A stretch of 64,000 nucleotides of DNA from Symploca sp. SIO1C2. Lineage in GTDB: Bacteria; Cyanobacteriota; Cyanobacteriia; Cyanobacteriales; Coleofasciculaceae. The stretch is from the NCBI GenBank assembly GCA_010672925.1, contig JAAHFP010000011.1:1-64000 (forward strand), given 5' to 3'. Of the stretch, positions 5,982 to 64,000 are shown in pieces. A program made the translations under genes and the position numbers. The notes beneath the pieces are model-generated. The model was not told where the DNA came from. It saw nothing but the letters and a program-made list of their open reading frames with translations, and made no database searches. How positions within the stretch are numbered: position 1 is the stretch's first letter; each line of letters opens with the position of its first letter.

Positions 5982-6238
5982 GAGGCAGGAGGCAGAAGGC
6001 AGGAGGCAGGAGGCTCAGAAAGAAGCAGACCAATAATGCTAGGTTAAGCCCCAATTTTGCTCCCCCAGCTCCCTCAGCTCCCTCAGCCCCCCAGCTCCCT
6101 CAGCTCCCTCAGCTCCCTCAGCTCCCAGCCCCCCAGCTCCCTCAGCTCCCCCAGCTCCCTCAGCCCCCCAGCTCCCTCAGCTCCCTCAGCTCCCTCAGCT
6201 CCCTCAGCTCCCCCAGCTCCCTCAGCTCCCTCAGCAAT
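5982..6238. repeat. GGCAGGA and CAGCTCCCT tandem arrays
   Basis: First a GGAGGCAGGAGGCAGAAGGC-type block (5982-6018), the same unit family found inside polA and the kinase gene. Then comes a tandem array of the 9-mer CAGCTCCCT with CAGCCCC variants (about 6058-6236), ending in AATTCTCAATTCCC units. The array fills the gap between the psbC terminator and the trmFO 3' end. Open frames through it are repeat artefacts. Confidence 0.85.
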
Positions 6239-11337: not shown

Positions 11338-14300
11338 ATGCTTCAATCTACCCCTGCTCCCCAATCCCCATCCTCAGCAGTAGCAAAACCTCTACTGATC
11401 CTTGTTGACGGTCATTCCTTAGCGTTTCGCTCTTACTTTGCCTTTGCGAAAGGAAGAGATGGGGGACTGCGCACCACTACAGGGATTCCTACTAATGTGT
11501 GTTTCGGCTTTCTTAAATCTCTGGTAGAAGTGATGAGTGCTGAACAACCCCAATCGATGGCGGTGGCTTTTGATACCAAAGAGCCTACATTTCGCCATGA
11601 AGCGGACAAAACTTATAAGGCGGGGAGAGAAGAAACTCCGGAAGAGTTTATCCCCGACTTAAAAAATCTCCAGGAATTGCTGGTAGGCTTAAGAGTACCT
11701 GTATTAAGGGCTCCTGGCTTTGAGGCGGATGATGTCTTAGCAACCTTGGCTCATCGTGCTAGTGATACAGGTTATCAGGTCAAAATTTTAACAGGCGATC
11801 GCGATCTATTTCAGCTGGTTGACCCCAACAAAGGGATTACAGTTTTGTATCTGAGTAGTTCCTTTTGGCGGCGCAGTAGTGATACGGGACCGGTGGAATT
11901 TAACACGGAAGATGTTGTTGCCAAGTTAGGTATTACCCCAGCCCAGGTGGTAGATTACAAAGCACTTTGTGGAGATAAATCAGATAATATTCCTGGAGTT
12001 AAAGGTATTGGGGATAAGACGGCAGTTAAATTGCTCAAGGAGTATGGCACTCTTGAGGAAATTTATGCTTCCTTGGATAAGATGAAGGGTTCTGTGAAGC
12101 AGAAGCTAGAAACAGGTGAAGCAGAGGCAAAACATTCCCAGTACCTTGCTCAACTGAGATTTGATGCTCCTGCTGAGATTGAGTTAGAAGATACCAAATT
12201 ACAGGGGTTTGATCTTGGGGTAATTAAACCTCTGTTAGCCAAGTTAGAGCTAAAGTTATTTTTAGACAAAATTGACCAACTCCAGGAGCAGTTTGGTGGT
12301 GTAGTTGTTGAGGAAGTTGCCCCAGAATCAGTAGAAGTAGTTGTACCAGATAGGGAAGATGAAGATTTATGGTTCTTTAGTGCCGAGGATACGGAAGCTT
12401 ATCAGCAGGAGCAGTTAGCTAATATACCGTTTCAAGCGAGGATTATTAATACAGAGGCTAAGTTAACTGAGTTGGTGCAGCAGTTGCAAAACTGTACTAA
12501 CCCAAATTTTCCCGTTGCCTGGGATACGGAAACTAGTGCTTTAGAACCCAGGGATGCTCAGTTGGTGGGGATTGGCTGTTGTTTTTTTAAGCAGAAGGCA
12601 GAAGAGAAGGCAGAAGGCAGGAGGCAGAAGGCAGAAGAGAAGGCAGGAGGCAGGAGGCAGGAGGCAGGAGGGAAGAAAGAAGAGAAGGCAGAAGGCAGAG
12701 GGCAGAGGGCAGAAGAGAAGGCAGGAGGCAGGAGGCAGGAGGCAGGAGGGAAGAAAGAAGAGAAGGCAGAAGGCAGAGGGCAGAGGGCAGAAGGGAAAGA
12801 AGGAGGTAAGGAAGAAGGGGAGGATAACTGTTTATCGGAAATTGAGATAACAGGTGGAGAAGAAATTCAGTCTTCCGATGTGGAAGTTGCTTATATTCCC
12901 ATCGCTCATCAACGGGGTGTTAATTTAGATCGAGATCTAGTACTCGAAGCCTTACGTCCTATCTTAGAGAGTAGTAATTATCCCAAAGCTCTACAAAATA
13001 GCAAGTTTGACCGATTAGTACTACGCTCTCAGGGAATTCAGCTAGCTGGAGTAGTATTTGATACTATGCTGGCAAGTTATGTGCTTAATCCTGATAATAG
13101 CCATAACCTCGGTGAATTAGCTCTGAAATATTTGGGACTGACGGCGAAAAGTTACACTGAGTTGGTGCCGAAGGGTAAAACTATTGGTGAGGTAGATATC
13201 CCAGCAGTAGCGGATTATTGCGGCATGGATGTTTATACAACATTTATGATCGTAGTTAAATTGCGAGAAGAATTTCGTAATGTTCCTCAATTGCAGCAAC
13301 TGTTACTAGAGGTGGAATTACCCCTAGAACCCGTCTTAGCAGAGATGGAATACCAAGGTATCTGTATTGACCAAGCATACCTCAAAAACTTTTCCCAACA
13401 ACTAGAAAAAGATTTACTTGAACTTGAGGAACAAGCTTACCAAGATGCAGGAGAAAAGTTTAACCTAGGGTCTCCTAAGCAGCTCAGTGAATTACTTTTT
13501 GTTAAATTGGAGTTAGACCGCAAGAAATCCCGCAAAATTAAAACAGGTTATTCTACGGATGCTGCAACCTTGGAAAAGTTGCGAGGAGATCATCCGGTGG
13601 TGGATGGGATTCTGGAATATCGCTCCCTTGCTAAATTAAAGTCTACCTATGTAGATGCATTACCAGCATTAGTACGTTCCGATAGCCAGCGGGTACATAC
13701 AGATTTTAACCAAGCAGTTACCACTACAGGGCGTCTCTCTTCTTCCAATCCCAACTTACAGAATATTCCCATCCGTACTGCCTTTTCTCGCCAAATTCGC
13801 AAGGCATTTATCCCAGAATCTGGTTGGTTATTAGTAGCAGCAGACTATTCCCAAATTGAACTACGTATCCTAGCCCATTTGAGCAAAGAACCAGTGCTGG
13901 TAAAAGCATATCAGACTAAGGGAGATGTTCATACTCTCACCGCTCAAATGTTATTTGACAAGGAGGAAGTAACTACCGAAGAGCGACGTTTGGGTAAGGT
14001 GATTAACTTTGGTGTCATTTACGGTATGGGAGCACAAAGGTTTGCCAGGGAAGCGAAGATGCCAGCGGCTCAAGGTAAGATCTTTATTGACCGGTTTAAT
14101 CAGCGCTATCCCCAGATCTTTGCCTATTTAGAGCAGATGAAACAAGAAGCGATCGCGCAGGGTTATGTGGAAACTATTTTAGGACGCCGCCGCTACTTTA
14201 ACTTCACCAGTGAGAAACTACGACGCCTGCAAGGGAAAGATTTAGCAGAGATTAATCTAGAGCAATTGAAAGGATTAGGTGCCTACGATGCGGGTTTACT

Positions 14301-14660: not shown

Positions 14661-16020
14661 TGACATCCTCCCACCACTAATTCGGAGTACCGAATATAGT
14701 GGGGGATTCCAAAGATCGCTCTTTGGGTTTTCTCTTTCCACGACTCGGCTTACATTGAGGGGTTTCCCCACCAATGCAGAGGTCGATGTCTTCAGAGACG
14801 TTTAACGTTCCCGTGTGCCCCACGGTACGGAGTCCTAATTCAAGTATGTTGATTGCTGCATTCGAGTCTCGGTCTAAAACAAATCCGCAATGATGACAGC
14901 GATGTGTTCTTTGACTCAACGATTTTTTGATAACTTTCCCGCAGTTAGAACAACTTTGACTGGTGTAGTGAGGTGGGACGGCTACTGTCACCACTCCAAA
15001 CACTTTACCGAAGTATTCCAACCAATCACGAAAAGCCGACCATGCAGCATCAGAAATCGACTTAGACAGCTTTCTATTTCTGACCATATTGCGCACCTGC
15101 AAGTCCTCATAGGCAACCAAGTCGTTAGACTCGACTACGCATCTTGCCAACTTCACAGCAAAATCTTTACGCTGCCTACTTACTTTGAGGTGCTTTCTAC
15201 TCAAGCGATTTCTTGCCTTGGCTCTGTTCTTAGAGTCTTTTTGGGTACGAGAAAATCTCTTGCTCAATCGCTTGAGTGCTTTCTCGGACTTCCGCAGATG
15301 CCTAGGGTTCTCAATCGTTTGTCCATCCGAGTTGGTGTAGAAGTGGTTCAAACCAACATCCAATCCAATGGTTTTCCCTGTTGGCTCTCGCTTGGATACT
15401 CGCTCGACATTAAGACAGAACTGAACGTAGTACCCATCGGCGCGATGCACAACACGAACTCGCTTAATCTGGCTCAACTGATAGAAGTGAAGGTCACGGG
15501 TTCCCCACAACTTGAAGCTTCCGGCTTTAAACCCATCGGTGAACGTGATAGTTCTTCTATCTTCCGACAGCTTCCATCCACAAGTTTTGTACTCAACAGA
15601 ACCATGCGTTCGATGTTTCTTGAAGCGTGGGAAACCCTTGTTTTTTACCTTCTTCTTACAGTTGTCGTAGAACCGAGCGATAGAACTCCAAGCTCGCTCA
15701 GCAGAAGCTTGACGAGCCATAGAGTTGAGCTTATTTGCCCAAGGGAATTCCTGGGCAAGAACTTTGCAATAGGCACTCAGGTCGTACCGACCAACGCCTT
15801 TGTTGTCCATCCAATATCTGAGGCAAGAATTGCGGACAAAACGAGCAGTGCGAATGGCTTCATTAAGCCGCTCATACTGCTCATTTTCTCCCTCAAGTTT
15901 TGCCTCAAATACCAGCATTTTACGTTGCTATACCTGACATAAATAACTCTAGCATACATCCTGTCCGCAATTCATCTCACCGCCAAATCGGAGATTATGG
16001 CGGGAGCCTTCTTGCGGTTG
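14660..16020 (-). mobile_element. IS200/IS605-type element carrying tnpB only
   Basis: The right end, at the left side here, is TTGACATCCTCCCACC, the usual cyanobacterial IS605 right-end style, with a hairpin-forming ATTCGGAGTACCGAATAT just inside (about 14681-14698). The opposite end is less certain; candidate end sequence with a CGCCAAATCGGAGATTATGG hairpin lies near 15990-16020. No tnpA is present, so it would need one supplied elsewhere. The right-end border falls in a toxin gene remnant. Confidence 0.7.
14677..15918 (-). CDS. tnpB: TnpB RNA-guided endonuclease (IS200/IS605 family)
   Basis: Transposon-encoded RuvC nuclease guided by a right-end-derived omega RNA, ancestral to Cas12. All three RuvC acidic residues are visible in GLDVGL, AYEDLQ and DRDSNAA, with a CxxC...CxxC zinc finger (CSNCGKV and CHHCGFVL). 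The length of 413 residues is normal. The C-terminal 45 residues after the third RuvC motif are Lys/Arg/Ser-rich, and the 3' end overlaps the element's right end, where the omega RNA scaffold would be encoded. With intact motifs it is probably active or only recently silent. By family logic the guide would match the flanking sequence at 14640-14660, inside the toxin remnant. Confidence 0.9.
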   Translation of the reverse strand: MLVFEAKLEGENEQYERLNEAIRTARFVRNSCLRYWMDNKGVGRYDLSAYCKVLAQEFPWANKLNSMARQASAERAWSSIARFYDNCKKKVKNKGFPRFKKHRTHGSVEYKTCGWKLSEDRRTITFTDGFKAGSFKLWGTRDLHFYQLSQIKRVRVVHRADGYYVQFCLNVERVSKREPTGKTIGLDVGLNHFYTNSDGQTIENPRHLRKSEKALKRLSKRFSRTQKDSKNRAKARNRLSRKHLKVSRQRKDFAVKLARCVVESNDLVAYEDLQVRNMVRNRKLSKSISDAAWSAFRDWLEYFGKVFGVVTVAVPPHYTSQSCSNCGKVIKKSLSQRTHRCHHCGFVLDRDSNAAINILELGLRTVGHTGTLNVSEDIDLCIGGETPQCKPSRGKRKPKERSLESPTIFGTPN

Positions 16021-16403: not shown

Positions 16404-19400
16404 ATGATTACCCTTTCTGGCTATCAAATTCTCAGCACGGTTTCTGAAAATGACCATACCTTAGTTTACCGGGGTATGAGAGAGCAAGATCAGCAACCGG
16501 TTATCCTAAAACTTCTCAAGCAAGATTATCCCACACCATCACAGCTGAGCCAATATCAACAAGAGTATGAGATTACTCACAGCCTCAATCTGGATGGAGT
16601 TATCAAGGCTTATAGCTTAGAGAAATATCAGCAGACTTTGGTCATCGTTTTTGAGGATTTCGGGGGAGAATCCTTGAGAGTATTGCTCAATCAGCGGATT
16701 AAAGCAGGCAAAGGGGTACTATCTTTAAAGAAATTTCTCAATATGGCGATACAGATTGCCGATAGCTTGGGCAGTATTCACGCTGCCAATATTATTCACA
16801 AAGACCTTAATCCAGCCAATATTCTTGTTAATTCAGCAACTGAGCAGCTGAAAATTATTGACTTTGGTATGGCTACAATATTGAGCCAAGAACATACTTC
16901 TGTCAACAATCCCCATATCTTAGAAGGTACTCTTGCTTATATATCGCCAGAGCAAACTGGTAGAATGAACCGTTCCCTGGATTACCGCAGCGATTTTTAC
17001 TCTTTGGGTGTCACTCTCTATGAACTACTTACTCATCAATTACCTTGTGAAGCAACAGATGCACTAGAGTTAGTTCACTATCATATTGCCAAACAGCCAG
17101 TACCACCAATTGAAGGCAGAAGGCAGGAGGCAGAAGGCAGAAGGGAAGAAATTCCTGGGGTTGTATCGGATATTGTAATGAAGTTGTTGGCCAAAAATGC
17201 TGAGGAGCGATATCAAAGTGCTTGGGGACTAAAGGCTGATTTAAAAGAATGTTTCCGGCAGTTAGCAACTACTGGCAAAATTGAACCCTTCCCTCTCGGT
17301 GCTCAAGATATTTCAGACAAATTTCAAATTCCTCAAAAATTATACGGCAGAGAGCAGGAAATTACCGCCCTACTAGCAGCTTTTGAAAGAGTCAGTGGTT
17401 CTTCCTCATCTGTCATATCAAGTCAGGTTGAATACTTACACTTTGGTGAGAATAAGGCAGAAAGCAGAGGGCAGAGGGCAGAAGGAAAGGAAAAAGGTTG
17501 CAAGCTAAAAGGGAATGATAACTGTTTATCCGAACTTGATATTAGCCCTTCATCCGAAGAACAAAATCAACAACCAACAACCAACAACCAAAAACCAACA
17601 ACAAATAACAAAGGACAAAGCGAACTAATGCTAGTGGCCGGTTATGCTGGTATCGGCAAGTCAGCGCTTGTGCGGGAGATTTACAAACCCATTACCCAAA
17701 AGCGGGGTTATTTTATTTCCGGTAAATTTGAGCAGTTTCAGCGCAACCTTCCCTATTTAGGGATGATTAAGGCTTTCCAAGAGTTAGTCGAACAACTATT
17801 AACCGAACCTGAAGCAGAGTTAGGATTATGGCGAGAGAAAATTTTGGCTGCTCTCGGTAGCAATGCTCAGGTAATTATTGAGGTCATTCCAGAAGTAGAA
17901 CTAATTGTTGGGAAGCAGCCTCAAGTTCCAGACCTGTCAGACACTGAATCCCAAAATCGCTTTAACTTAGTATTTCAAAACTTTATCGAAGTCTTTACTA
18001 ATTCAAAATACCCTTTAGTAATCTTTCTTGACGATTTACAGTGGGCAGATGGTGCTTCTTGGAAACTGATGCAACTGCTGATGAGTAGTTCGGTAACGGG
18101 ACTGTTTGTTATTGGAGCTTATCGAGATAATGAAGTAGGTAAAGCTCATCCGTTGAAGCTGATGCTCGAAGAGCTACGGACAATTGGAGTAACGGTTAAT
18201 CATATTTGGCTCTCTCCTTTAAATTTTACTGCTGTTAACCAATTAATTACCGACACCCTCAAGGGCAATCTCGAACAAACTAAAGAATTGGCAGCATTAG
18301 TTCTACGCAAAACCCAAGGTAATCCCTTTTTTGTGAAAGAATTTTTAAAGTCACTTCAGGAAACAGGTTTATTGTACTTCGATAGACATCAAATTACTTG
18401 GAATTGGAATTTCGAGCAAATCCAGGCACAGGGATTTACTGATAATGTGGTAGAACTGATGACTAGCAAAATTCAAAAGTTGCCTGCTCCTACACAAAAA
18501 GTATTGCAGTTAGCAGCTTGTATTGGTAATCAGTTTGAGCTAGAGATGTTAGCCATGGTTAATACAACTTCTCTAGAGGAAACCGCAGCTTGTCTATGGG
18601 AAACGGTAGAAGAAGGTTTGGTTGTACCCCTAGGTGATGCTTATAAGTTAATTGAGCTTAAACGAAAACAGAATAATGAAAAACTCTTTCCTCCTGCCTC
18701 CTGCCTCCTGCCTCCGGTTCCCCTCCTTGGAGGGGTTAGGGGTGGGTTTCTGCCTAGCCTGCGGCAACGGCTTGGCCAAACTGCCTTACAAAGCGAAAAC
18801 CTCGTGGAATACCAATTTGCCCATGACAGGATTCAACAAGCAGCATATTCTTTAATTCCGAAACAGCAAAAGCAAACTATCCATTGGCAAATAGGACAAA
18901 TATTGTGGCAGAATACTCCTACTCAGCAGCAACAAGCAAAAATTTTTGATATCGTCAATCAACTAAATTTGGGTAGTGAACTGATCCCTAGCCAATTAGA
19001 GCAAGATCAGTTAGCGGAGTTGAACCTCCAGGCGGGAAAAAAAGCCAAAGCATCCGCAGCTTACGAGCCAGCCTTGAATTACTTAGAGATTGCCTCAGGA
19101 CTGTTGAGGCAAGATAGATGGAAAACTCAGTATCAATTAACCCTAGAAATATATGTCAACCTCGCCAGTACTGCCTACCTCTGTGGTAATTTTCAGCAGA
19201 TGGAGAAATTGGTACATATTGTGCTTCATCAAGGGAAAACTCTACTAGACAAAGTGCAAGTTTACGAAATCCAGATTGAAGCTTATATCGCACAAAATCA
19301 ACTGCTAGAAGCAGCAAAAACCGCGCTATCAGTGCTAAAGCTGTTAGGGATAAATCTTCCTGAAAAGCCCAACAAATTGCAAGTTTTACTGGGTTTTCTA

Positions 19401-22400
19401 CGGACAAAATGGACTTTGAGAGGCAAACGAGTTGAGGATTTAATCAATTTGCCCCCAATGACCGAGCCCTACAAGTTAGCCGCAATGCGTATCATCTTTA
19501 TTGTGGGCTCAGCTATCTATGTAGCAGTACCGGAACTAGTGCCATTGATTGTGTTTAAACAAGTCAATTTATCGGTTAACTATGGAAATACTTCTAAATC
19601 TATCTATGCCTATACGGGTTACGGCATAATTTTGGGCTCTTTTATGGGTGATATTGAGACAGGGTATCAATTTGGTCAACTGGCTCTTAGTCTGTTCAAT
19701 AAGTTTAATGCTCAAGAACTAAAAGCGAGAATCTATTTGATAGTTAATGACCTAATCAAACATTCTCAGGAACATCTCACAGAGACTTTACAGCCTTTAA
19801 AATTAGCCTATGCTAGTGGACTAGAAACGGGAGATTTAGAATTTGCTGCCCTTTCTGCCAATGCTTACTGCTACCATGCCTATTTAGTCGGTAAGGAACT
19901 GGGTAAATTGGAACAAGAGATGGCAAGTTACAGTGATGTTATCAGTCAACTCAAGCAAGAAACCGCTCTTCATTTTCTACAAATCTGGCAACAGGTAGTT
20001 CTGAATTTGTTGAGAGACTATGGGGGAGCTGAGGAAGCTGAGGAGGCTGAGGGAGATAAGAGAGATAAGGGAGACAAGGAAGATATATATAATTACCAAT
20101 TCCCAAACAATAAACAACAAACAACAAATAACAAACAACAAATAACAAATTTAATTGGTAAAGCCTACAACGAACAGAAAATGTTACCCCTGCATCAGCA
20201 GGTTAATGACCAGACAGCAATATTTCTTGTCTATTTCAATAAACTTTTCCTCTGTTACCTCTTTGGGGAGTACGAACAAGCAGTAAAAAATGCAACGATA
20301 ACCGAAAAATATTTAGATGGGGGATTGGGAGCGATAACGATTGCTGTCTTCTATTGTTACTACTCCCTTGCTCTACTCGCAGTATGTGACACAACTACAA
20401 CAAACAAGCAAAAACGCCCACTTCAACAAGTAGTTGCCAACCAGAAAAAACTGCGAAAATTGGCACAAGCTGCGCCGATGAATCATGGGCACAAATTTTA
20501 TCTAGTGGAGGCAGAGCGCTATCGCATTCTCAGACAAGAAGCCAAGGCTATAGACTATTATGATCGTGCCATTGCCCTAGCACAAGAAAATGGATATATC
20601 AATGAAGAAGCACTAGCACAAGAGTTAGCTGCTAAGTCTTATTTAGCTCAAGGGAAGACAACTATTGCCTCTGCCTACATGCTCAAAGCCCGTTATGCTT
20701 ACCTCCTCTGGGGAGCTACAGCTAAAGTCAAAGATTTGGAGACCAACTATCCCCAGTTGCTAGCTACAACATCAGCGCCAGCAAGCATCGGAATTCAAGA
20801 TACTAAAGTTACTCGTTTAACATCCGATGGTAGTTCAGGAGAAGCCTTAGATTTAGCTACAGTTATGAAGGCTAGTCAAGCGATTTCTGGTGAAATTGTG
20901 CTAGATAAGCTACTAGCTAAGTTAATGGAACTGGTGATGGAGAATGCGGGAGCACAAAAAGGAGTTCTCATCTTAGCACAGCAAGGTAAGTTGATGATTG
21001 AGGCTACGGGGGAAGTTCAGACAAAGGAAGTTAAGGTGCTACAATCGCTTCCCCTGGAAAAGAGTGAAGATCTACCTAAAGCAATTGTCAATTATGTAGC
21101 TAGAACCCAGTCAGATGTAGTCTTAAGCGATGCTTATCATGAAGGTATCTTTACTACCGAACCCTATATCAAAAAAAATCACTCGAAGTCGATTTTATGT
21201 GTGCCAATTATCAATCAAGGCAAGCTGATTGGTATCCTGTATCTAGAGAATAATCTCACCACCGCTGCTTTTACTCCCCAGAGAATAGCAGTACTGCAAG
21301 TTCTCTCCTCCCAAGCAGCAATTTCCCTAGAAAATGCCCTCTTGTATCGAACCCTCGAACAAAAAGTTCAGGAGCGCACAGCTCAGTTAAAGCAAAAAAA
21401 TGAACTAATTCGCCAGGTATTTGGACGCTACCTCACCGATGAAGTGGTCTCCAATTTACTCGAAACTCCTGAAGGATTAAAACTTGGTGGCGAAAGAAGG
21501 GAAATTACCATCCTTACCTCAGATTTAAGAGGATTTACCGCTACCTCTGAGCGATTATCCCCGGAAGAAGTGGTGACCATCCTCAATATTTATCTGGAAT
21601 CAATGGCGGAGATTATTACTCAGTATCAGGGAACGATTGATGAATTTATGGGGGATGGAATTTTAGTCCTCTTTGGTGCTCCTAATGCCAGAGAAGATGA
21701 TGCAGTCAGAGCTGTCGCTTGTGCTGTTGCCATGCAGTTAGCCATGAAGTCAGTCAATGAAAAAATGCAGGAGCAGGGTTTACCAACCCTAGAAATGGGT
21801 ATTGGTATTAATACAGGAGAAGTAGTAGTAGGAAATATCGGTTCAGAAAAACGGACTAAATACGGTGTAGTTGGCAGCCAGGTGAACCTAACTTTCCGCA
21901 TCGAATCCTATACAACTGGTGGTCAAATTTTGATTGCAGAGCAAACTTTTAAAGAGGCTCAACCACTGCTGCAAATCAATCAACAAAAGCAGGTACAACC
22001 AAAAGGAATTGATCACCCAATCACCATTTATGATGTCGGAGGTATTGGTGGGGAATATAACCTCTTTCTCTCTCCAGAAGAAGAGATACTCAAACCCCTA
22101 CCTCAAAAAATTCCTTTGCAATACACGATTGTGGAAAATAAGCAGGTTGGCAATATCAGTTTCCTGGGAAATTTAGTCCAACTATCAGCCAAGGTAGCTT
22201 TAGTTAGCTGTGAACCAATAGATGGAAACCCACCACTAAAGTCTTTGAGTAATATCAAGCTTAATTTATTAACCCAAAACTCCCAAGGGGAAGTCAGTGA
22301 AGATATTTATGCCAAGGTTTTGGAAAGGCCAGCACAACCGGGGAGTTTTTATATCTCTTTTACTGCTCAACCTCCAGCTGTTAAAGCCAAGCTTGAAGAA

Positions 22401-22430
22401 CTCTACCGTTCCCTTGACAGTGTTCGTTAG
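16404..22430 (+). CDS. giant Ser/Thr kinase - AAA ATPase - GAF - class III cyclase regulator
   Basis: A 2008-residue multidomain sensor. Residues 1-290 form a Hanks-type kinase (catalytic loop HKDLNPAN near 131, then DFGMA). An AAA-type ATPase follows with Walker A GYAGIGKSA near 412 and Walker B VIFLDDLQWAD near 540. Then come a long helical/TPR-like stretch (to about 1450), a GAF domain (about 1485-1640), a short coiled linker and a class III nucleotide cyclase domain (about 1700-1860, metal Asp in TSDLRGF and FMGDGILVLFG). The last 130 residues look PilZ-like. It likely turns an unknown signal into phosphorylation and cAMP output. Four low-complexity insertions sit in frame (residues about 237-249, 338-404, 752-793, 1208-1250), one of them within the kinase C-lobe. 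Activity of the kinase part is therefore uncertain. Confidence 0.92.
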   Translation: MITLSGYQILSTVSENDHTLVYRGMREQDQQPVILKLLKQDYPTPSQLSQYQQEYEITHSLNLDGVIKAYSLEKYQQTLVIVFEDFGGESLRVLLNQRIKAGKGVLSLKKFLNMAIQIADSLGSIHAANIIHKDLNPANILVNSATEQLKIIDFGMATILSQEHTSVNNPHILEGTLAYISPEQTGRMNRSLDYRSDFYSLGVTLYELLTHQLPCEATDALELVHYHIAKQPVPPIEGRRQEAEGRREEIPGVVSDIVMKLLAKNAEERYQSAWGLKADLKECFRQLATTGKIEPFPLGAQDISDKFQIPQKLYGREQEITALLAAFERVSGSSSSVISSQVEYLHFGENKAESRGQRAEGKEKGCKLKGNDNCLSELDISPSSEEQNQQPTTNNQKPTTNNKGQSELMLVAGYAGIGKSALVREIYKPITQKRGYFISGKFEQFQRNLPYLGMIKAFQELVEQLLTEPEAELGLWREKILAALGSNAQVIIEVIPEVELIVGKQPQVPDLSDTESQNRFNLVFQNFIEVFTNSKYPLVIFLDDLQWADGASWKLMQLLMSSSVTGLFVIGAYRDNEVGKAHPLKLMLEELRTIGVTVNHIWLSPLNFTAVNQLITDTLKGNLEQTKELAALVLRKTQGNPFFVKEFLKSLQETGLLYFDRHQITWNWNFEQIQAQGFTDNVVELMTSKIQKLPAPTQKVLQLAACIGNQFELEMLAMVNTTSLEETAACLWETVEEGLVVPLGDAYKLIELKRKQNNEKLFPPASCLLPPVPLLGGVRGGFLPSLRQRLGQTALQSENLVEYQFAHDRIQQAAYSLIPKQQKQTIHWQIGQILWQNTPTQQQQAKIFDIVNQLNLGSELIPSQLEQDQLAELNLQAGKKAKASAAYEPALNYLEIASGLLRQDRWKTQYQLTLEIYVNLASTAYLCGNFQQMEKLVHIVLHQGKTLLDKVQVYEIQIEAYIAQNQLLEAAKTALSVLKLLGINLPEKPNKLQVLLGFLRTKWTLRGKRVEDLINLPPMTEPYKLAAMRIIFIVGSAIYVAVPELVPLIVFKQVNLSVNYGNTSKSIYAYTGYGIILGSFMGDIETGYQFGQLALSLFNKFNAQELKARIYLIVNDLIKHSQEHLTETLQPLKLAYASGLETGDLEFAALSANAYCYHAYLVGKELGKLEQEMASYSDVISQLKQETALHFLQIWQQVVLNLLRDYGGAEEAEEAEGDKRDKGDKEDIYNYQFPNNKQQTTNNKQQITNLIGKAYNEQKMLPLHQQVNDQTAIFLVYFNKLFLCYLFGEYEQAVKNATITEKYLDGGLGAITIAVFYCYYSLALLAVCDTTTTNKQKRPLQQVVANQKKLRKLAQAAPMNHGHKFYLVEAERYRILRQEAKAIDYYDRAIALAQENGYINEEALAQELAAKSYLAQGKTTIASAYMLKARYAYLLWGATAKVKDLETNYPQLLATTSAPASIGIQDTKVTRLTSDGSSGEALDLATVMKASQAISGEIVLDKLLAKLMELVMENAGAQKGVLILAQQGKLMIEATGEVQTKEVKVLQSLPLEKSEDLPKAIVNYVARTQSDVVLSDAYHEGIFTTEPYIKKNHSKSILCVPIINQGKLIGILYLENNLTTAAFTPQRIAVLQVLSSQAAISLENALLYRTLEQKVQERTAQLKQKNELIRQVFGRYLTDEVVSNLLETPEGLKLGGERREITILTSDLRGFTATSERLSPEEVVTILNIYLESMAEIITQYQGTIDEFMGDGILVLFGAPNAREDDAVRAVACAVAMQLAMKSVNEKMQEQGLPTLEMGIGINTGEVVVGNIGSEKRTKYGVVGSQVNLTFRIESYTTGGQILIAEQTFKEAQPLLQINQQKQVQPKGIDHPITIYDVGGIGGEYNLFLSPEEEILKPLPQKIPLQYTIVENKQVGNISFLGNLVQLSAKVALVSCEPIDGNPPLKSLSNIKLNLLTQNSQGEVSEDIYAKVLERPAQPGSFYISFTAQPPAVKAKLEELYRSLDSVR
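17415..17542 (+). repeat. 128-bp MITE-like element, copy A (in frame inside kinase gene)
   Basis: Begins ATATCAAGTCAGG and ends CCGAACTTGATAT, i.e. imperfect terminal inverted repeats. The inside holds GGTTGAATACTTACACTTTGG, then GGCAGAGGGCAGAGGGCAG units. An equally long copy lies at 59932-60059, and a left-end fragment at 28026-28078. The core without the outermost A and T is 126 bp, a multiple of three. The kinase frame passes through and reads V-E-Y-L-H-F ... C-L-S-E-L-D-I. Confidence 0.85.
17560..17622 (+). repeat. CAACAACCAA-type low-complexity tract in kinase gene
   Basis: Directly after copy A comes a run of CAACAACC/AACAAATAAC units translated as Gln/Pro/Thr/Asn. The same sequence type occurs in the ketosynthase gene and three times in cobN. 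It is in frame. Confidence 0.75.
18670..18775 (+). repeat. CCTGCCTCCTGCCTCC and CCCTCCTTGGAGGGG repeats in kinase gene
   Basis: A CCTCCTGCCT run (the complement of the GGCAGGAGG family) is followed by the hairpin-forming CCCCTCCTTGGAGGGG and GTTAGGGGTGGG. It is in frame with the kinase gene and translates to a Pro/Leu then Gly/Val-rich stretch. It interrupts the ATPase-associated helical region. Confidence 0.7.
20025..20152 (+). repeat. inverted copy of the composite repeat in kinase gene
   Basis: Blocks in order: GAGGAAGCTGAGGAGGCTGA, then GGGAGATAAGAGAGATAAGG with GGAGACAAGG, then CCAATTCCC, then AAACAACAAACAACAAATAAC. This is the reverse complement order of the composite at 807-985 and in cobN. 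It is in frame, encoding Glu/Ala, Gly-Asp-Lys and Asn/Gln/Thr-rich segments. Confidence 0.8.
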
Positions 22431-28025: not shown

Positions 28026-28078
28026 ATATCAAGTTCAGTTGAATACTTACACTTCGTTTGCAACAAGACGACCGGGCA
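28026..28078 (+). repeat. 128-bp element, copy C (left-end fragment)
   Basis: Matches the first ~35-50 bp of copies A and B, including the terminal ATATCAAGTTC and GGGCAG at its edge. The right half with CCGAACTTGATAT is absent. Confidence 0.7.
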
Positions 28079-29268: not shown

Positions 29269-29417
29269 TAAGGAAGTGGGGAGTAGCCCCTTTATCGACT
29301 AACCATACCGGATTTGGTATCAGTATTTGCGGTGCGTTAGCTAGTAACGCACCTTACTGAGGGACTAGGTTTAAGCCATATGTCGTTCTCAGATTTTCAA
29401 TTACAATTCAGCTCCTT

Positions 29418-39923: not shown

Positions 39924-40659
39924 AGCTTAAAATTACATTCTTATCTTAAATAAACATTGGTGCAAGATTTCAGTAATACTAACAATCTCAAGTCCTGACG
40001 GATATCCCTCAATAGGAGGAAAGGAAAAAAGCTTGACTATAGATTCTTTAGACCCAACCTACAGTTTTAAAGGAAATTCATGGATATCCTAATCTTTGGT
40101 TCAACTAGTTGTGCGTTCAAACAAGACAATCAGGGTTACAAGATTATCCTTTTATAAAATAATAAATCCTACCAATCTTGGGGGAATTTGAATTATTTTT
40201 TACGTTCTCTGAGAACCGGATTTGGTATCACTGGGTAGGGTGAACGAAATTTTGGGTGGGATTTCTTGAGCTTTGTCTCCAAAAATTATCAGTTCTCCCT
40301 TCTTCCTCCGCTCCTCCGCCCCTCTGCTCCTCCGCCCCTCCGCTCCTCCGCCCCTCTGCCCCCTGACAAGGGTAGGTTTTTTACTTTCGGGTTGGGACAA
40401 GACAAGGGGGACAAGGAAGACAAGGTGACAAGGGAGTAAAACCGTACAAAATCCTGTTCGGTTCGCCAAAATTGTTGATGTTAAAAAGCCCAGTTTTTCG
40501 TACAAAATCCTCCTTGTCTACTTTCCTTCTTTCCTTCCTTGTCTCATTTTCACCTAAATATTAAAAACCTACCCTTGTGAGCCCTCCGCCCCTCCGCCCC
40601 TCTGCTCCTCCGCTCCCCACCCTTTTTTTCGCTCACCCCACTGGGTATTTCCTAAGAGC
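39924..40659. repeat. repeat-rich spacer with inverted AAAACCTACCCTTGTC pair
   Basis: No gene. At 40366-40385 GACAAGGGTAGGTTTTTTAC and at 40561-40580 its inverted form TAAAAACCTACCCTTGTGAG flank 175 bp. Outside each arm lies a CTCCGCCCCT-type tandem run (40310-40362 and 40581-40615). The inner part has GGACAAGGAAGACAAGG units and two GTACAAAATCCT copies (40442 and 40500). A third copy of the arm sequence is at 16026-16045. Open frames here are repeat artefacts. Confidence 0.7.
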
Positions 40660-58792: not shown

Positions 58793-59932
58793 ATGATTCC
58801 CAAAATTCAGACTATACCAATTCAACATCTAGCTTCAGGCGATCGCTTGGCAATCCAAGTCTATCAATTCAGTGGTAGTAAACCAGGAAAAAAGGCATAT
58901 CTACAGGCGAACCTCCACGGTGCAGAAATTGTTGGTAATGCGGTTATTCATCAGTTGATTGAATTTCTCCTCACTCTTGATGATAGCCAGCTGGTTGGGG
59001 AAATTTGGTTAGTACCTGTGTGCAATCCTCTCAGCACTAATCAACGCCATCACAATTTTTCTACAGGAAGATTTAACCCTTATGATGGCAAAGATTGGAA
59101 TCGTATTTTCTGGGACTATGAGAAACAAGGTGATGATTTAGCTGCCTTTGCCCAATCTCAGATTAATCTTGAGATGACTGAGATTTACCACAACTACCTC
59201 AAACGCATTCAGGCAAGTTTTGCTCAAGAATTAGCTAAAATACAATCTCCGAGTGGAGTGCCCTTGCGTCAGCGTTACCGCTATCAGCTACAATCTCTAT
59301 GTCTTGATGCCAACTATGTGATTGATATTCATAGCTCCACCAATCAAGCCATTGATTATCTGTATTGCTTTCACAACGCACAAGAAAGCGCTAAGGCTTT
59401 TCTCTTGGACTATAGTATTTTGATGAGTGAGTACGATGGAGATGCCTTTGATGAAGCTTTTCTGAAACCCTGGCTAGCACTGGAAAAACAATTAGCAGCA
59501 TTGGGTAAAATAATTAAGTTTGATGTGGAATCTTGGACATTGGAATTAGGTTCTGGCATGACGATGAATCCAGAATCAGTGGCAAAAGGAATTAAGGGTA
59601 TCAAAAATTACTTGGCAGAAAAGGGAATATTAAAGATTGTTGGTTTCCCTGTAGCAGAAACTGCATCTCACCAAATCAATTTTGCTAACAAAAGTCAGCT
59701 CAAAAGCTATTATGCTCCTGTAGGTGGGATGATTCAATCAAAAGTTGAACTAGGTAGCCTGGTTAAAGAAGGAGAACTAATGTATCAGCTACTGAGTTTC
59801 AATAAGAATCAAGAGTTACCAACATTAATAGATATCTATGCTGAAACTACGGGGGTAGTGTTTACTGTATCCACTAATCAGGCGGTTAATGAAGGGGAGT
59901 ATGTACTGAGTGTGATGCATTTGGATAAGTAA
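58793..59932 (+). CDS. succinylglutamate desuccinylase/aspartoacylase-family protein
   Basis: A 379-residue M14-like zinc amidohydrolase. The ligands are in LQANLHGAEIVGN (H-x-x-E) and VIDIHSST (His), with the substrate Arg/Asn region CNPLSTNQRHHNFSTGRFNP between. A C-terminal beta-barrel (GGMIQSKVELGSLVKEGELM) is typical of the family. It removes an acyl group from an N-acyl amino acid or related amide; the substrate is unknown. It stands alone between the Rpn gene and a 128-bp repeat copy. Confidence 0.85.
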   Translation: MIPKIQTIPIQHLASGDRLAIQVYQFSGSKPGKKAYLQANLHGAEIVGNAVIHQLIEFLLTLDDSQLVGEIWLVPVCNPLSTNQRHHNFSTGRFNPYDGKDWNRIFWDYEKQGDDLAAFAQSQINLEMTEIYHNYLKRIQASFAQELAKIQSPSGVPLRQRYRYQLQSLCLDANYVIDIHSSTNQAIDYLYCFHNAQESAKAFLLDYSILMSEYDGDAFDEAFLKPWLALEKQLAALGKIIKFDVESWTLELGSGMTMNPESVAKGIKGIKNYLAEKGILKIVGFPVAETASHQINFANKSQLKSYYAPVGGMIQSKVELGSLVKEGELMYQLLSFNKNQELPTLIDIYAETTGVVFTVSTNQAVNEGEYVLSVMHLDK

Positions 59933-60059
59933 TATCAAGTTCGGTTGAATACTTACACTTTGGCTGCGACAAGGCAGAGGGCAGAGGGCAGAGGGCAGAA
60001 GGGAAGAAAGAAGTTTGCAAGGGAGAAGGGAATTATAAGTGATTATCCGAACTTGATAT
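59932..60059 (+). repeat. 128-bp MITE-like element, copy B (intergenic)
   Basis: Begins ATATCAAGTTCGG and ends CCGAACTTGATAT, a perfect 13-bp terminal inverted repeat, identical in length to copy A at 17415-17542 and similar throughout. It starts on the last base of the aspartoacylase stop codon (TAATATCAAG). The reading frame used in copy A is interrupted by one TGA here. Confidence 0.88.
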
Positions 60060-60169
60060 AATAAGTAATAAGCAGTAGTAGGACTTCAGTCCAAAAAGAA
60101 GCCAAAAACAATGTGGGCATAACGGGTTTGGTAATTTATTGAAAAATGATTGAAGCCACGGTCCAATGG

Positions 60170-63100
60170 TTAACAATTCTTTCCTTCAATGACTGCTTCG
60201 GCTTGCAACGCGATCGCTCTCAACTCATCTAAGGTATCCTGTTCAACAGACTGCCACAAAGACCGCTGATGAGCTTCTAGTAACCTTTCTGCCATATCTC
60301 GCAATGCCCAAGGATTCTTTTGTTGGATAAATTCCTGTACTTTAGGTTCAAAAATATAGGCTTCTGCTACCCCTCGATACATATGGTCTTCGACACAATT
60401 AGCTGTAGCATCATAGGCAAATAAATAGTCCACTGTTGCCGCCATTTCAAAAGCTCCTTTGTAGCCGTGACGCATTACCCCTTCTATCCATTTGGGATTA
60501 ACTACACGGGAACGATAAACCCGGGCAATTTCCTCCCGCAACTGTCTTACTTTCGGATTTTGAGGGATAGAGTTGTCGCCAAAGTAGGTTTGGGGATTTT
60601 TACCAGTCAAGGATCTAATAGCAACAGTTAGACCCCCTTGGAACTGATAATAGTCATCAGAATCGAGTAAATCATGTTCTCGATTATCCTGGTTGTGCAG
60701 CACTATTTGCATTTGTTGTAAGCGCTGCTCAAAAGCTTCTGCTGCGGGAATTCCTTGTAATCCGGTTTTAGTTGGTGCAGCAATTGGTTCTGGTTTATCT
60801 GTGTAGGCAAAACTACTCCAGTTAATATAAGCACGAGCTAAATCTTGCTCATCCTGCCAGTTTTGTGCTTCAATTAAACCTTGTAACCCTGCACCATAAG
60901 CACCAGGTTTAGAACCAAAAATACGATAACCCGATCGCTGTTGAGCTTCTTCAAGACTTAAGCCAGCTGCTTCCCACCTGACTTGCTCTTGTTGAACTTG
61001 GGCTGCTAGGGGATTCTCCGCCACAGGTTCATCCAAAGCCGCAACTGCTCTTACCGCTTGATCAAATAAGCTAATTAAGTTGGGAAAAGCATCCCGGAAA
61101 AAGCCAGAAATCCGCAAAGTTACATCAACCCGGGGACGCCCTAACACTGATACTGGTAGAATTTCAAAATCCACTACCCGACGAGATACCCCATCCCACA
61201 CTGGCTGTACTCCCAACAAGGCTAAGGCTTCGGCTAAGTCATCGCCTCCGGTACGCATAGTGGAAGTTCCCCAAACGGACAATCCTAAGGTTTTAGGGTA
61301 TTCACCATTTTCCTGAGTATAGCGTTCAATAAGAACTTCTGCTGCCTTACGACCCACATCCCAAGCAGTTTCTGTCGGGATAGCGCGGATATCCACAGAG
61401 TAGAAATTTCGTCCTGTCGGCAACACTTCCGGACGTCCTCTGGTTGGCGCACCCGCAGGACCGCTGGCTACATAGCGCCCATCAAGTCCTCTTAATAACT
61501 GGGTTAGTTCCTGGTCAGTTTGCTGGAGTGCTGGTAAAAGGCGATCGCGTATCCATTGTAATTCGTTGTTGGTTTTTTGTTGTTGGTTGTTTGTTGTTGG
61601 TTGTTTGTTGTTGGTTGTTTGGGAATTGGGGATGAGTTGTTCTACTAAGGTAGCCGCTTGTTCTTCTAATGCTTCAATTAGATCACCAGTGGTGCGACAA
61701 TTAAAAGGTGTATCCCCAGCAACACCATGTATCTCCTGTTCGACCTTCTCAATTCTCAATTCTCCATTCTCAATTCTCCATTCTTCATTCCCCACTCCCC
61801 AATCCTCTGCTATAGCGCGAGTTAAACCAATACGGCCATTACCGGGACTACGAGCGATCGCAACGATTAAATCCCGTAACTGACGCCCTTGAGGACATTG
61901 GCCTAAAATATGTAACCCGTCTCGAATTTGGGCTTCTTTCAATTCACACAAGTAGCCATCAATGGAATTCAAGATCAAAGATTCAAACTTAACCAGGCTT
62001 TCAGCCCCAATCAAGCTTAATTTCTCCCCGTCCCCGCGTCCCCGCGTCCCCGCGTCTATGTCCTGATTTATGCCCAAATCCTGATGCAAATTTTCCTCAA
62101 AGATTAGTTGGACAATGCGATCGCGAATTATTGGTAACCTGGAAGGGTCTAAACTCTGAGCTTCGTAATACTCATCAATCAAACCTTCGAGTTTGTGCAA
62201 GGAACCATAGAGTTCAGCACGAGTCATCGGTGGAGTAAGATGATCAATGATTACCCCTTGAGCACGACGCTTGGCTTGGGAACCTTCACCAGGGTCATTG
62301 ACAATAAAAGGATACAGATGAGGCATTGCTCCCAGGGCTACTTCTGGATAACAATTACCTGACAACGCCACACTCTTACCCGGTAACCACTCCAAATTAC
62401 CATGCTTACCCACATGCACCATTGCCTGCGCTCCAAACTTAACCCGCAACCAATAGTAAAAAGCTAAATAGGCAGGAGTTGGCTCTAAATCAGGAGCATG
62501 ATAATTCAAACTTGGGTCTAGATCATAACCCCGTGATGGTTGAATACCGATAAAGATATTGCCTAGTTGAATGCCGGAAATTGTTATTTGTTGTTGGTTG
62601 TTTGGGAATTGGGAATTTGCCTCGCTTCGCTCACCATGCTGCGCAAAGGGAATTGGGAATTGGGAATTGGGAATTGAGAATTGAGAGTTAGAAATTCCTA
62701 CCTTGTCTCCCTTGTCCCCCTTGTCTACCTTGTCTCCCCACACTCCCCCCATCTCCCCATCTCCCCATCTCTCCATCCAGCGATCGCAAATTCCCTGTTG
62801 CACCTCCGGGGGTAAGGTGGCAAAATACTGTTGGTACTCAGCTACAGATAGCTGCTGGTTTATTTGGCGTAATTCTCTTCCTTCAGGATCATTGGTTACT
62901 CCGGCAGTAAGAAGAGCGATTAATTCATCCCCAGTTGCTGGAATATCTTCAACTTGATAACCCGCTTGTTGCAGTGCCTTGAGAATTTCGACACAACTGG
63001 CAGGGGTATCTAAGCCTACTCCATTAGCTAAACGTCCATCTCGATTGGGGTAGTTGGCTAGAATTAGGGCAATTTTTCGTTCGGCTGGGGGTGTTTGTTG

Positions 63101-64000
63101 TAAACTGAGCCAATTAGCAGCTAAATCTGCCACAAATTCGATGCGATCGCGCACTGGTTCATATACTACTACATCTGTCTCCAATACAGGATTCCAGGTT
63201 TGCACTGATTTAAAAGAAACCGCACGAGTGATAATCCGTCCATCCACTTCTGGCAATGCTACGTTCATTGCCGTATCTCTAGGGGTTAATCCCTGAAACT
63301 GCTCACTCCACTGTGACTTTGTGCCGCCACTAAAGATTACTTGCAACACTGGCACATCTAAACCCTGCCAAAAATCAAGTTGGGGTGTCTCAGTTTCTAA
63401 CTTAGCGAGGGAGAAACTGGTGGTATTGAGCAACAGTCTAATCCCTGCACCTTCTTGCGGCTGGAAATAGTTGAGCAACTCGGCTTGTACATCCGGTTCC
63501 CGCACAGAAGAGACAAACACTGGTACTGGTGCTAACTGCCGTTGTACTAAGGCTTGGCAAAGCGCATCAATCGGTGCAGTATTTCCCGCTAGATAATGAG
63601 CGCGGTAGAAGAGGATGGCGATTTTGTTATTTGTTGTTTGTTGTTGGTTGTTTGGGAATTGGGAATTGGGAATTTGCCTCGCTTCGCTCACCATGCTGCG
63701 CAAAGGGAATTGGGAATTGGGAATTGGTGAGTGAAAATCTTCCTTGTCTCCCTTGTCTCCCTTGTCTCCCTTGTCTCCCTTGTCTCCCTTGTCTCCCTTG
63801 TCTTCCTTGTCTCCCTTGTCTCCCTTGTCTCCCTTGTCTCCCTTGTCTTCCTTGTCTCCCTTGTCTCCCTTGTCTCCCTTGTCTCCCTTGTCTCCCTTGT
63901 CTTCCTTGTCTCCCTTGTCTCCCTTGTCTCCCTTGTCTCCCTTGTCTTCCTTGTCTCCCTTGTCTCCCTTGTCTCCCTTGTCTCCCTTGTCTCCCTTGTC
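60170..64000 (-). CDS. cobN: cobaltochelatase subunit CobN, 5' part outside window, with repeat insertions
   Basis: Large subunit of the ATP-dependent chelatase that inserts cobalt during adenosylcobalamin synthesis (related to the Mg-chelatase H subunit). Family landmarks: IFIGIQPSRGYDLDPSLNYH, VHVGKHGNLEWLPGKSVALS, NDPGEGSQAKRRAQGVIIDH, and the C-terminal MRHGYKGAFEMAATVDYLFA. The frame stays open from the stop at 60170 to the window edge; a TTG at 63703 could be mistaken for a start, but homology requires more N-terminus. In-frame low-complexity insertions occur at about 61563-61640, 61745-61805, 62040-62065, 62578-62780 and 63620-64000. Whether the real start lies beyond the window, across the last array, is inferred. 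Confidence 0.9.
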   Translation of the reverse strand, partial: DKGDKGDKGDKGDKGDKEDKGDKGDKGDKGDKEDKGDKGDKGDKGDKGDKEDKGDKGDKGDKGDKEDKGDKGDKGDKGDKGDKGDKEDFHSPIPNSQFPLRSMVSEARQIPNSQFPNNQQQTTNNKIAILFYRAHYLAGNTAPIDALCQALVQRQLAPVPVFVSSVREPDVQAELLNYFQPQEGAGIRLLLNTTSFSLAKLETETPQLDFWQGLDVPVLQVIFSGGTKSQWSEQFQGLTPRDTAMNVALPEVDGRIITRAVSFKSVQTWNPVLETDVVVYEPVRDRIEFVADLAANWLSLQQTPPAERKIALILANYPNRDGRLANGVGLDTPASCVEILKALQQAGYQVEDIPATGDELIALLTAGVTNDPEGRELRQINQQLSVAEYQQYFATLPPEVQQGICDRWMERWGDGEMGGVWGDKVDKGDKGDKVGISNSQFSIPNSQFPIPFAQHGERSEANSQFPNNQQQITISGIQLGNIFIGIQPSRGYDLDPSLNYHAPDLEPTPAYLAFYYWLRVKFGAQAMVHVGKHGNLEWLPGKSVALSGNCYPEVALGAMPHLYPFIVNDPGEGSQAKRRAQGVIIDHLTPPMTRAELYGSLHKLEGLIDEYYEAQSLDPSRLPIIRDRIVQLIFEENLHQDLGINQDIDAGTRGRGDGEKLSLIGAESLVKFESLILNSIDGYLCELKEAQIRDGLHILGQCPQGRQLRDLIVAIARSPGNGRIGLTRAIAEDWGVGNEEWRIENGELRIEKVEQEIHGVAGDTPFNCRTTGDLIEALEEQAATLVEQLIPNSQTTNNKQPTTNNQQQKTNNELQWIRDRLLPALQQTDQELTQLLRGLDGRYVASGPAGAPTRGRPEVLPTGRNFYSVDIRAIPTETAWDVGRKAAEVLIERYTQENGEYPKTLGLSVWGTSTMRTGGDDLAEALALLGVQPVWDGVSRRVVDFEILPVSVLGRPRVDVTLRISGFFRDAFPNLISLFDQAVRAVAALDEPVAENPLAAQVQQEQVRWEAAGLSLEEAQQRSGYRIFGSKPGAYGAGLQGLIEAQNWQDEQDLARAYINWSSFAYTDKPEPIAAPTKTGLQGIPAAEAFEQRLQQMQIVLHNQDNREHDLLDSDDYYQFQGGLTVAIRSLTGKNPQTYFGDNSIPQNPKVRQLREEIARVYRSRVVNPKWIEGVMRHGYKGAFEMAATVDYLFAYDATANCVEDHMYRGVAEAYIFEPKVQEFIQQKNPWALRDMAERLLEAHQRSLWQSVEQDTLDELRAIALQAEAVIEGKNC
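61563..61640. repeat. TTGTTGGTTGTTTG repeat in cobN
   Basis: Tandem TTGTTGGTTGTTTG units ending in GGGAATTGGGG. On the coding strand it is Asn/Gln/Thr/Pro-rich (N-S-Q-T-T-N-N-K-Q-P-T-T-N-N). In frame. Confidence 0.8.
62578..62780. repeat. composite repeat in cobN, copy with CGCTTCGCTCACCATGCTGC core
   Basis: Block order TTGTTATTTG / GGGAATTGGGAATT / CGCTTCGCTCACCATGCTGC / GGGAATTGGG / TTGTCTCCC / CATCTCCC. The stretch 62581-62670 recurs almost exactly at 63629-63727. It is in frame and encodes an Asn/Gln/Phe/Pro and Gly-Asp-Lys rich segment. Confidence 0.82.
63620..64000. repeat. composite repeat and TTGTCTCCC tandem array at window edge
   Basis: Same composite as 62578-62780, then from about 63741 to the end about 29 tandem copies of a 9-mer (TTGTCTCCC, every fifth or so TTGTCTTCC). 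The leftward cobN frame reads these as Gly-Asp-Lys repeats with occasional Glu, without a stop. The array continues beyond the window. Confidence 0.88.

Follow-up and report, generated by a model that had tools for sequence, protein, structure and literature searches.

A cyanobacterial MITE family that duplicates a TNA target and has copies inserted in frame in genes

The 64-kb stretch of DNA from Symploca sp. SIO1C2 analysed here (hereafter, the window) carries two copies of one inverted-repeat element, copy A in a kinase/ATPase gene and copy B between genes, together with a truncated end and a relic (Table 1). A previous description made from the letters alone (the sequence-only reading) had delimited both copies as 128-bp units with matching ends, at 17415-17542 and 59932-60059, and both are indeed present there; the outermost base on each side, however, belongs to the target, and the core is therefore 126 bp long. 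All 126 positions of each copy can be aligned with the family consensus, with a match of 89.7% for copy A and 92.9% for copy B. Copy A sits in the linker between the kinase and ATPase domains of its host, has no stop in the host frame and would give SGSSSSVISSQVEYLHFGENK across its junctions. As its two flanking triplets differ, its target duplication is imperfect. Copy B is closed in the frame used by copy A (AAG TGA). The earlier proposal of a core nearly stop-free in one frame is thereby corrected for copy B. The GGCAG-type units described in the interior are present, and the left fragment that had been placed at 28026 is real.

Table 1. Features of the element family; positions refer to the window unless a locus handle (L) is given
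Feature	Position	Strand	Description
Expanded GGCAG-type repeat units in polA	12591-12762	+	Upstream of the relic
Element relic in polA	12763-12845	+	Consensus positions 39-124, 85%, E 2e-22; frame as in copy A (...DNCLSEIEI)
Host gene of copy A	16404-22430	+	2008 aa: protein kinase, AAA_16 ATPase, GAF and guanylate cyclase domains
Left target triplet of copy A	17413-17415		TCA
Copy A, MITE core	17416-17541	+	Within the host gene, in frame; encodes ISSQVEYLHFGENKAESRGQRAEGKEKGCKLKGNDNCLSELDI
Right target triplet of copy A	17542-17544		TTA; differs from the left one
Left-end fragment of the element	28027-28067	+	41 bp; 90% against consensus, E 4e-11
Single end of the TACCAAATCCGG kind	29308-29320		
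Single end of the TACCAAATCCGG kind	40216-40228		
Left target duplication of copy B	59930-59932		TAA; doubles as stop codon of the 379-aa ORF 58793-59932
Copy B, MITE core	59933-60058	+	Intergenic
Right target duplication of copy B	60059-60061		TAA, equal to the left one
Sister MITE copy	L192:1131-1248		
Sister MITE copy	L321:2375-2500		
Sister MITE copy	L189:3139-3265		

The window also contains GGCAG heptamer arrays that are not bounded by inverted ends, at 17113-17151 and 5983-6025; the kinase-gene array is also found in a congener (G001) and is, therefore, older than copy A. On the minus strand, an ORF at 14677-15918 resembles, by eye, a TnpB protein of the IS200/IS605 type, and a long ORF at 60170-63703 carries low-complexity inserts (NSQFPIPNSQF-like, TTNNKQPTTNNQQQ). 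Simple repeats within coding genes seem to be common in the SIO1C2 genome.

A diverged right end had been noticed in polA at 12836-12848, and it turns out to belong to a longer relic. This element copy is old and its repeats have expanded; the polA of G001 lacks the insert. The AlphaFold model of polA has a mean pLDDT of 35 and was set aside. In three genomes, the loop of the PolA 3'-5' exonuclease (after GIGCCF) holds differing repeat-derived inserts: the MITE relic in the window (12591-12850), a GGGGAATG repeat in G002 (L290) and, in G007 (L288), other palindromic repeats amounting to about 70 residues. This loop looks like a tolerant hotspot for inserts.

When the flanks of 30 copies are compared, the ends of the 126-bp core fall at TATCAAGTTCGG...CCGAACTTGATA. 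The terminal inverted repeats are perfect over 12 bp and imperfect over about 24 bp, and a TNA triplet flanks the core on both sides as a target duplication of fixed length (3 bp). The copies surveyed were fetched from the best-scoring matches; the flanking triplets are identical in 79 of the 109 copies having both ends, and they are TTA in 41, TAA in 35, TCA in two and TGA in one, so that 76 of the 79 fit TWA. Exactly 126 bp were found in 35 of the 109, most of the others measuring 100-200 bp, and the interior is an array of GGCAGA(A/G) heptamers of variable length. No transposase ORF was found between paired ends. With its terminal inverted repeats, its duplicated target and a short body (within about 70-300 bp) devoid of an internal transposase gene, the element is a MITE, that is, a family of non-autonomous DNA transposons, of one cyanobacterial genus. 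One 354-bp copy (L101, in the C1:148024 region) contains an extra repeat cassette and is read within a long ORF. Other repeats are nested inside L101, L125 (G001:C74), L157 and L223, and in several genic copies the nested segment reads PTPNPSKEGN or PTPNPSQEGN, in frame.

The family is abundant. Exact 13-bp ends occur 151 times (75 + 76) in the 8.67-Mb genome, far beyond chance, as the reversed pattern used as a control gives no match, and BLAST gave 41 matches. With a covariance model based on 27 copies, the SIO1C2 genome and two congeners each give at least 58 copies, 58 being the most that were scored; several other genera of the same family have 1-22, and the rest of the order has little. 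The further copies that the sequence-only reading called for are thus there. Identity among copies averages 83%, and some pairs reach 98-100%, which indicates activity in both old and recent times. Some contigs start inside the element (G001:C113 and C208; G002:C701 and C1213); it therefore breaks assemblies, and the true copy number is probably higher. Neither Rfam nor a plasmid search gave a match to copy B. When two sister families (see below) were used in the plasmid search, weak matches to Oscillatoria nigro-viridis plasmids were obtained, where no annotated transposase adjoins the match.

Transposition can be read directly from the congeners. Three genic copies correspond to base-exact empty sites, in which a single TTA stands in place of the element: the CHAT-domain gene of L206 (caatTTA[138 bp]TTAgcctc against caatTTAgcctc in two congeners), the oxidoreductase-AIRS fusion of L013 (gatTTA[126]TTAccc against gatTTAcc in two congeners) and the PMT_2 glycosyltransferase of L029 (gaaaTTA[126]TTAcc against gaaaTTAct in G001). 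The congener proteins read SYLPSAQF|SLKP and (E/D)DL|P at such sites. The kinase orthologue of G001 lacks copy A as well and reads FERVSGNFSHSSDTHNKQQTTNNKGQSE; the linker itself is variable there. The left flank of copy A cannot be aligned with G001 for about 14 bp, so that the empty site of copy A is not base-exact. The intergenic stretch that holds copy B is not conserved in G001 and G002. The base-exact empty sites, each with one copy of the target triplet, contradict the opposite view, namely that the insert is an ancient, immobile segment or domain conserved in these proteins. Such a view might draw on the recurrence of the peptide NKAEGRGQRAEGKKEGCKVEGNYNCLSELDI, in one frame, in unrelated genes; it is, however, hard to reconcile with congener orthologues that lack the insert, with the fact that most copies are intergenic, and with the use of two different reading frames, and we consider it extremely improbable.

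Regarding the copies within genes, we counted as genic those whose surrounding ORF, after removal of the element and one triplet, spans 120 codons or more, with 40 codons on each side. These ORFs run from stop to stop and are not gene calls, and the fractions given below are therefore estimates. Among 108 scored placements (the second left end of L157 was not counted), 13 lie in such ORFs and 12 of these are read through, the exception being L177, a 127-bp copy in a short putative ORF. The hosts are unrelated and include NRPS, PKS, CHAT-TPR, WD40 and kinase proteins, an oxidoreductase-AIRS fusion and a glycosyltransferase; recognisable domains are present in most of the host ORFs, and that of L193 has no Pfam match. 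All 12 read-through copies are in sense orientation, ten in the frame ISSSVEYLHFG..NYNCLSELDI and two in the frame YQVRLNTYTLV..SDYPNLI. In a six-frame translation of the consensus, the third sense frame and most of the antisense frames are closed, which explains why only two frames are observed, and only in sense. Length is constrained too: all 12 copies are multiples of three. This holds for each of the five that depart from 126 bp (111, 138, 153, 153 and 168 bp), but for 12 of 51 non-genic copies of other lengths (P = 0.0016). Genic copies make up about 12% of the total, while 63% of the TWA sites in the window would qualify under the same ORF criterion. Disruptive insertions thus look purged and frame-neutral ones kept, and purging looks like the simplest reading of the bias. 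The proposal that a non-autonomous element can add a protein segment largely holds.

A different kind of bias is seen outside genes. In nine of 79 non-genic rows, which correspond to eight sites (L003 is listed twice) and include copy B, an ORF of 100 codons or more ends at the duplicated TAA, which serves as its stop codon. This placement (8/78) is around four times as frequent as in the background of non-genic TWA sites in the window (2.3%, P = 0.0004), and an insertion at such a TAA leaves the gene intact. The excess could be taken to favour a REP/ERIC-like palindrome with a regulatory or terminator role between genes, whose genic copies would be accidental, and the intergenic majority, as well as the stem formed by the ends (z -4.6 on the plus strand and -4.8 on the minus strand for copy B), would agree with it. 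Nevertheless, the preference for stop codons follows from TAA being a target whose use spares the gene, the folding of copy A barely beats that of shuffled sequences (z -1.5), nothing in Rfam matches, and the target duplications and empty sites show transposition; such a role is, thus, unlikely.

It might also be argued that the genic copies form a specialised subfamily, a mobile linker cassette selected for translation and not simply what purging left behind. Most of the genic copies carry ACTGTTTATCC, and many intergenic ones carry AGTGATTATCC, which puts a TGA in the main frame. However, the open variant is frequent between genes too and is, therefore, not gene-specific, and survivorship accounts for the excess, so we find this subfamily rather improbable. 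Unlikely as well is the idea that the whole family has evolved towards coding compatibility, with its 43-codon gain, its stop-free and charged sense strand and its TGA-removing variant as parts of a mobile linker cassette. If that were true, a coding-compatible cassette would seed new interdomain linkers and loops throughout the proteome.

The explanation that we prefer, with a probability of about 0.92 for the whole, is a genus-level MITE that targets and duplicates TNA, whose copies survive in genes according to phase, orientation and length, and which would supply linkers to some proteins. The element inserts at TNA triplets, which are nearly always TAA or TTA, and duplicates them. The net gain is 126 + 3 = 129 bp, or 43 codons, so a 126-bp copy never shifts the frame of its host. 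In sense, two of the three phases are open: insertion in the phase xTN|A would be read as ISSSVEYLHFG-NKAEGR-QRAEGKKEGCKVEG-NYNCLSELDI and insertion in the phase TTA as YQVRLNTYTLV-RQKAEGRGQKGRKKVAREKGIISDYPNLI; given the stops in the third phase and in most antisense phases, most genic insertions would be lost by selection. The surviving genic copies would lengthen their proteins by about 43 residues in the form of a charged and probably disordered linker. The internal heptamers later expand or contract, and the changes seen in genes are confined to multiples of three.

Mobilisation would take place in trans, with a DDE transposase of IS5/PIF-Harbinger type as the probable agent. The 3-bp TWA target duplication is a signature of PIF/Harbinger elements, which are relatives of bacterial IS5 (PMC4482050), and the 76 TWA triplets among the 79 identical duplications point to a transposase of that group. 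The sequence-only reading had suggested searching for a transposase with the same ends, and none was found among the PF01609, PF13340, PF13586 and PF13359 loci searched, nor adjoining the single ends examined in the SIO1C2 genome. Pairs of ends separated by 0.5-3 kb in that genome, considered as a possible autonomous partner, enclose host genes and not transposases, and in G007 a short repeated ORF accounts for ten identical TATCAAGTTCGGCAAAATAATAAG sites, which look unrelated. In relatives, most PF13359 elements have the ends TAGACATCTCC. As the ends of the family were found at none of the PF13359 or PF01609/PF13340 loci searched, we do not file it under IS5/PIF-Harbinger, with which only the preference for a 3-bp AT-rich target was compared; the autonomous copy may have been lost or may belong to another family. 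The same genomes harbour sister MITE families with the same TNA duplication, one of about 117 bp that is bounded by TACCAAATCCGG, one of about 125 bp bounded by TATCAATTCCGG and a third bounded by TATCAAATCCGG, so one transposase family may serve several MITE families.

ORF-bearing MITEs that form in-frame fusions have been described before, above all the Rickettsia palindromic elements (PMC10969869; PMC3733652), for which a 2024 review (PMC10969869) cites Ogata et al. 2000. Growth of proteins by mobile elements in frame is best known in Rickettsia, and the review considers it "conceivable" in other organisms. By description, the present family works like them: in both, a palindrome (about 150 bp in Rickettsia) occurs in many copies, several of which lie in frame in unrelated genes and add a similar peptide. 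We do not claim it as one of them. The present family has clear ends, a clear TNA duplication and clear exact empty sites, its interior is an array of heptamers, and it lives in a cyanobacterium whose genome measures 8.7 Mb. It also resembles Nezha and other cyanobacterial MITEs (Zhou et al. 2008 and Wolk et al. 2010, as cited in the same review), compared by description only, in being small, non-autonomous and bounded by inverted repeats; MITEb and MITEe of Anabaena reportedly carry ORFs (PMC10969869). In Porphyromonas gingivalis, BrickBuilt is a MITE with a minisatellite interior (PMC4596501), but its repeat has 23 nt and its copies are always intergenic, whereas the repeat described here has 7 nt and some copies are genic. 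With empty sites available for CHAT, oxidoreductase-AIRS and glycosyltransferase genes, the process becomes directly testable in a cyanobacterium, and the rule for survival (phase, orientation and length modulo three) is simple and predictive. This is probably a new MITE family with a good comparative record, and not a new kind of system.
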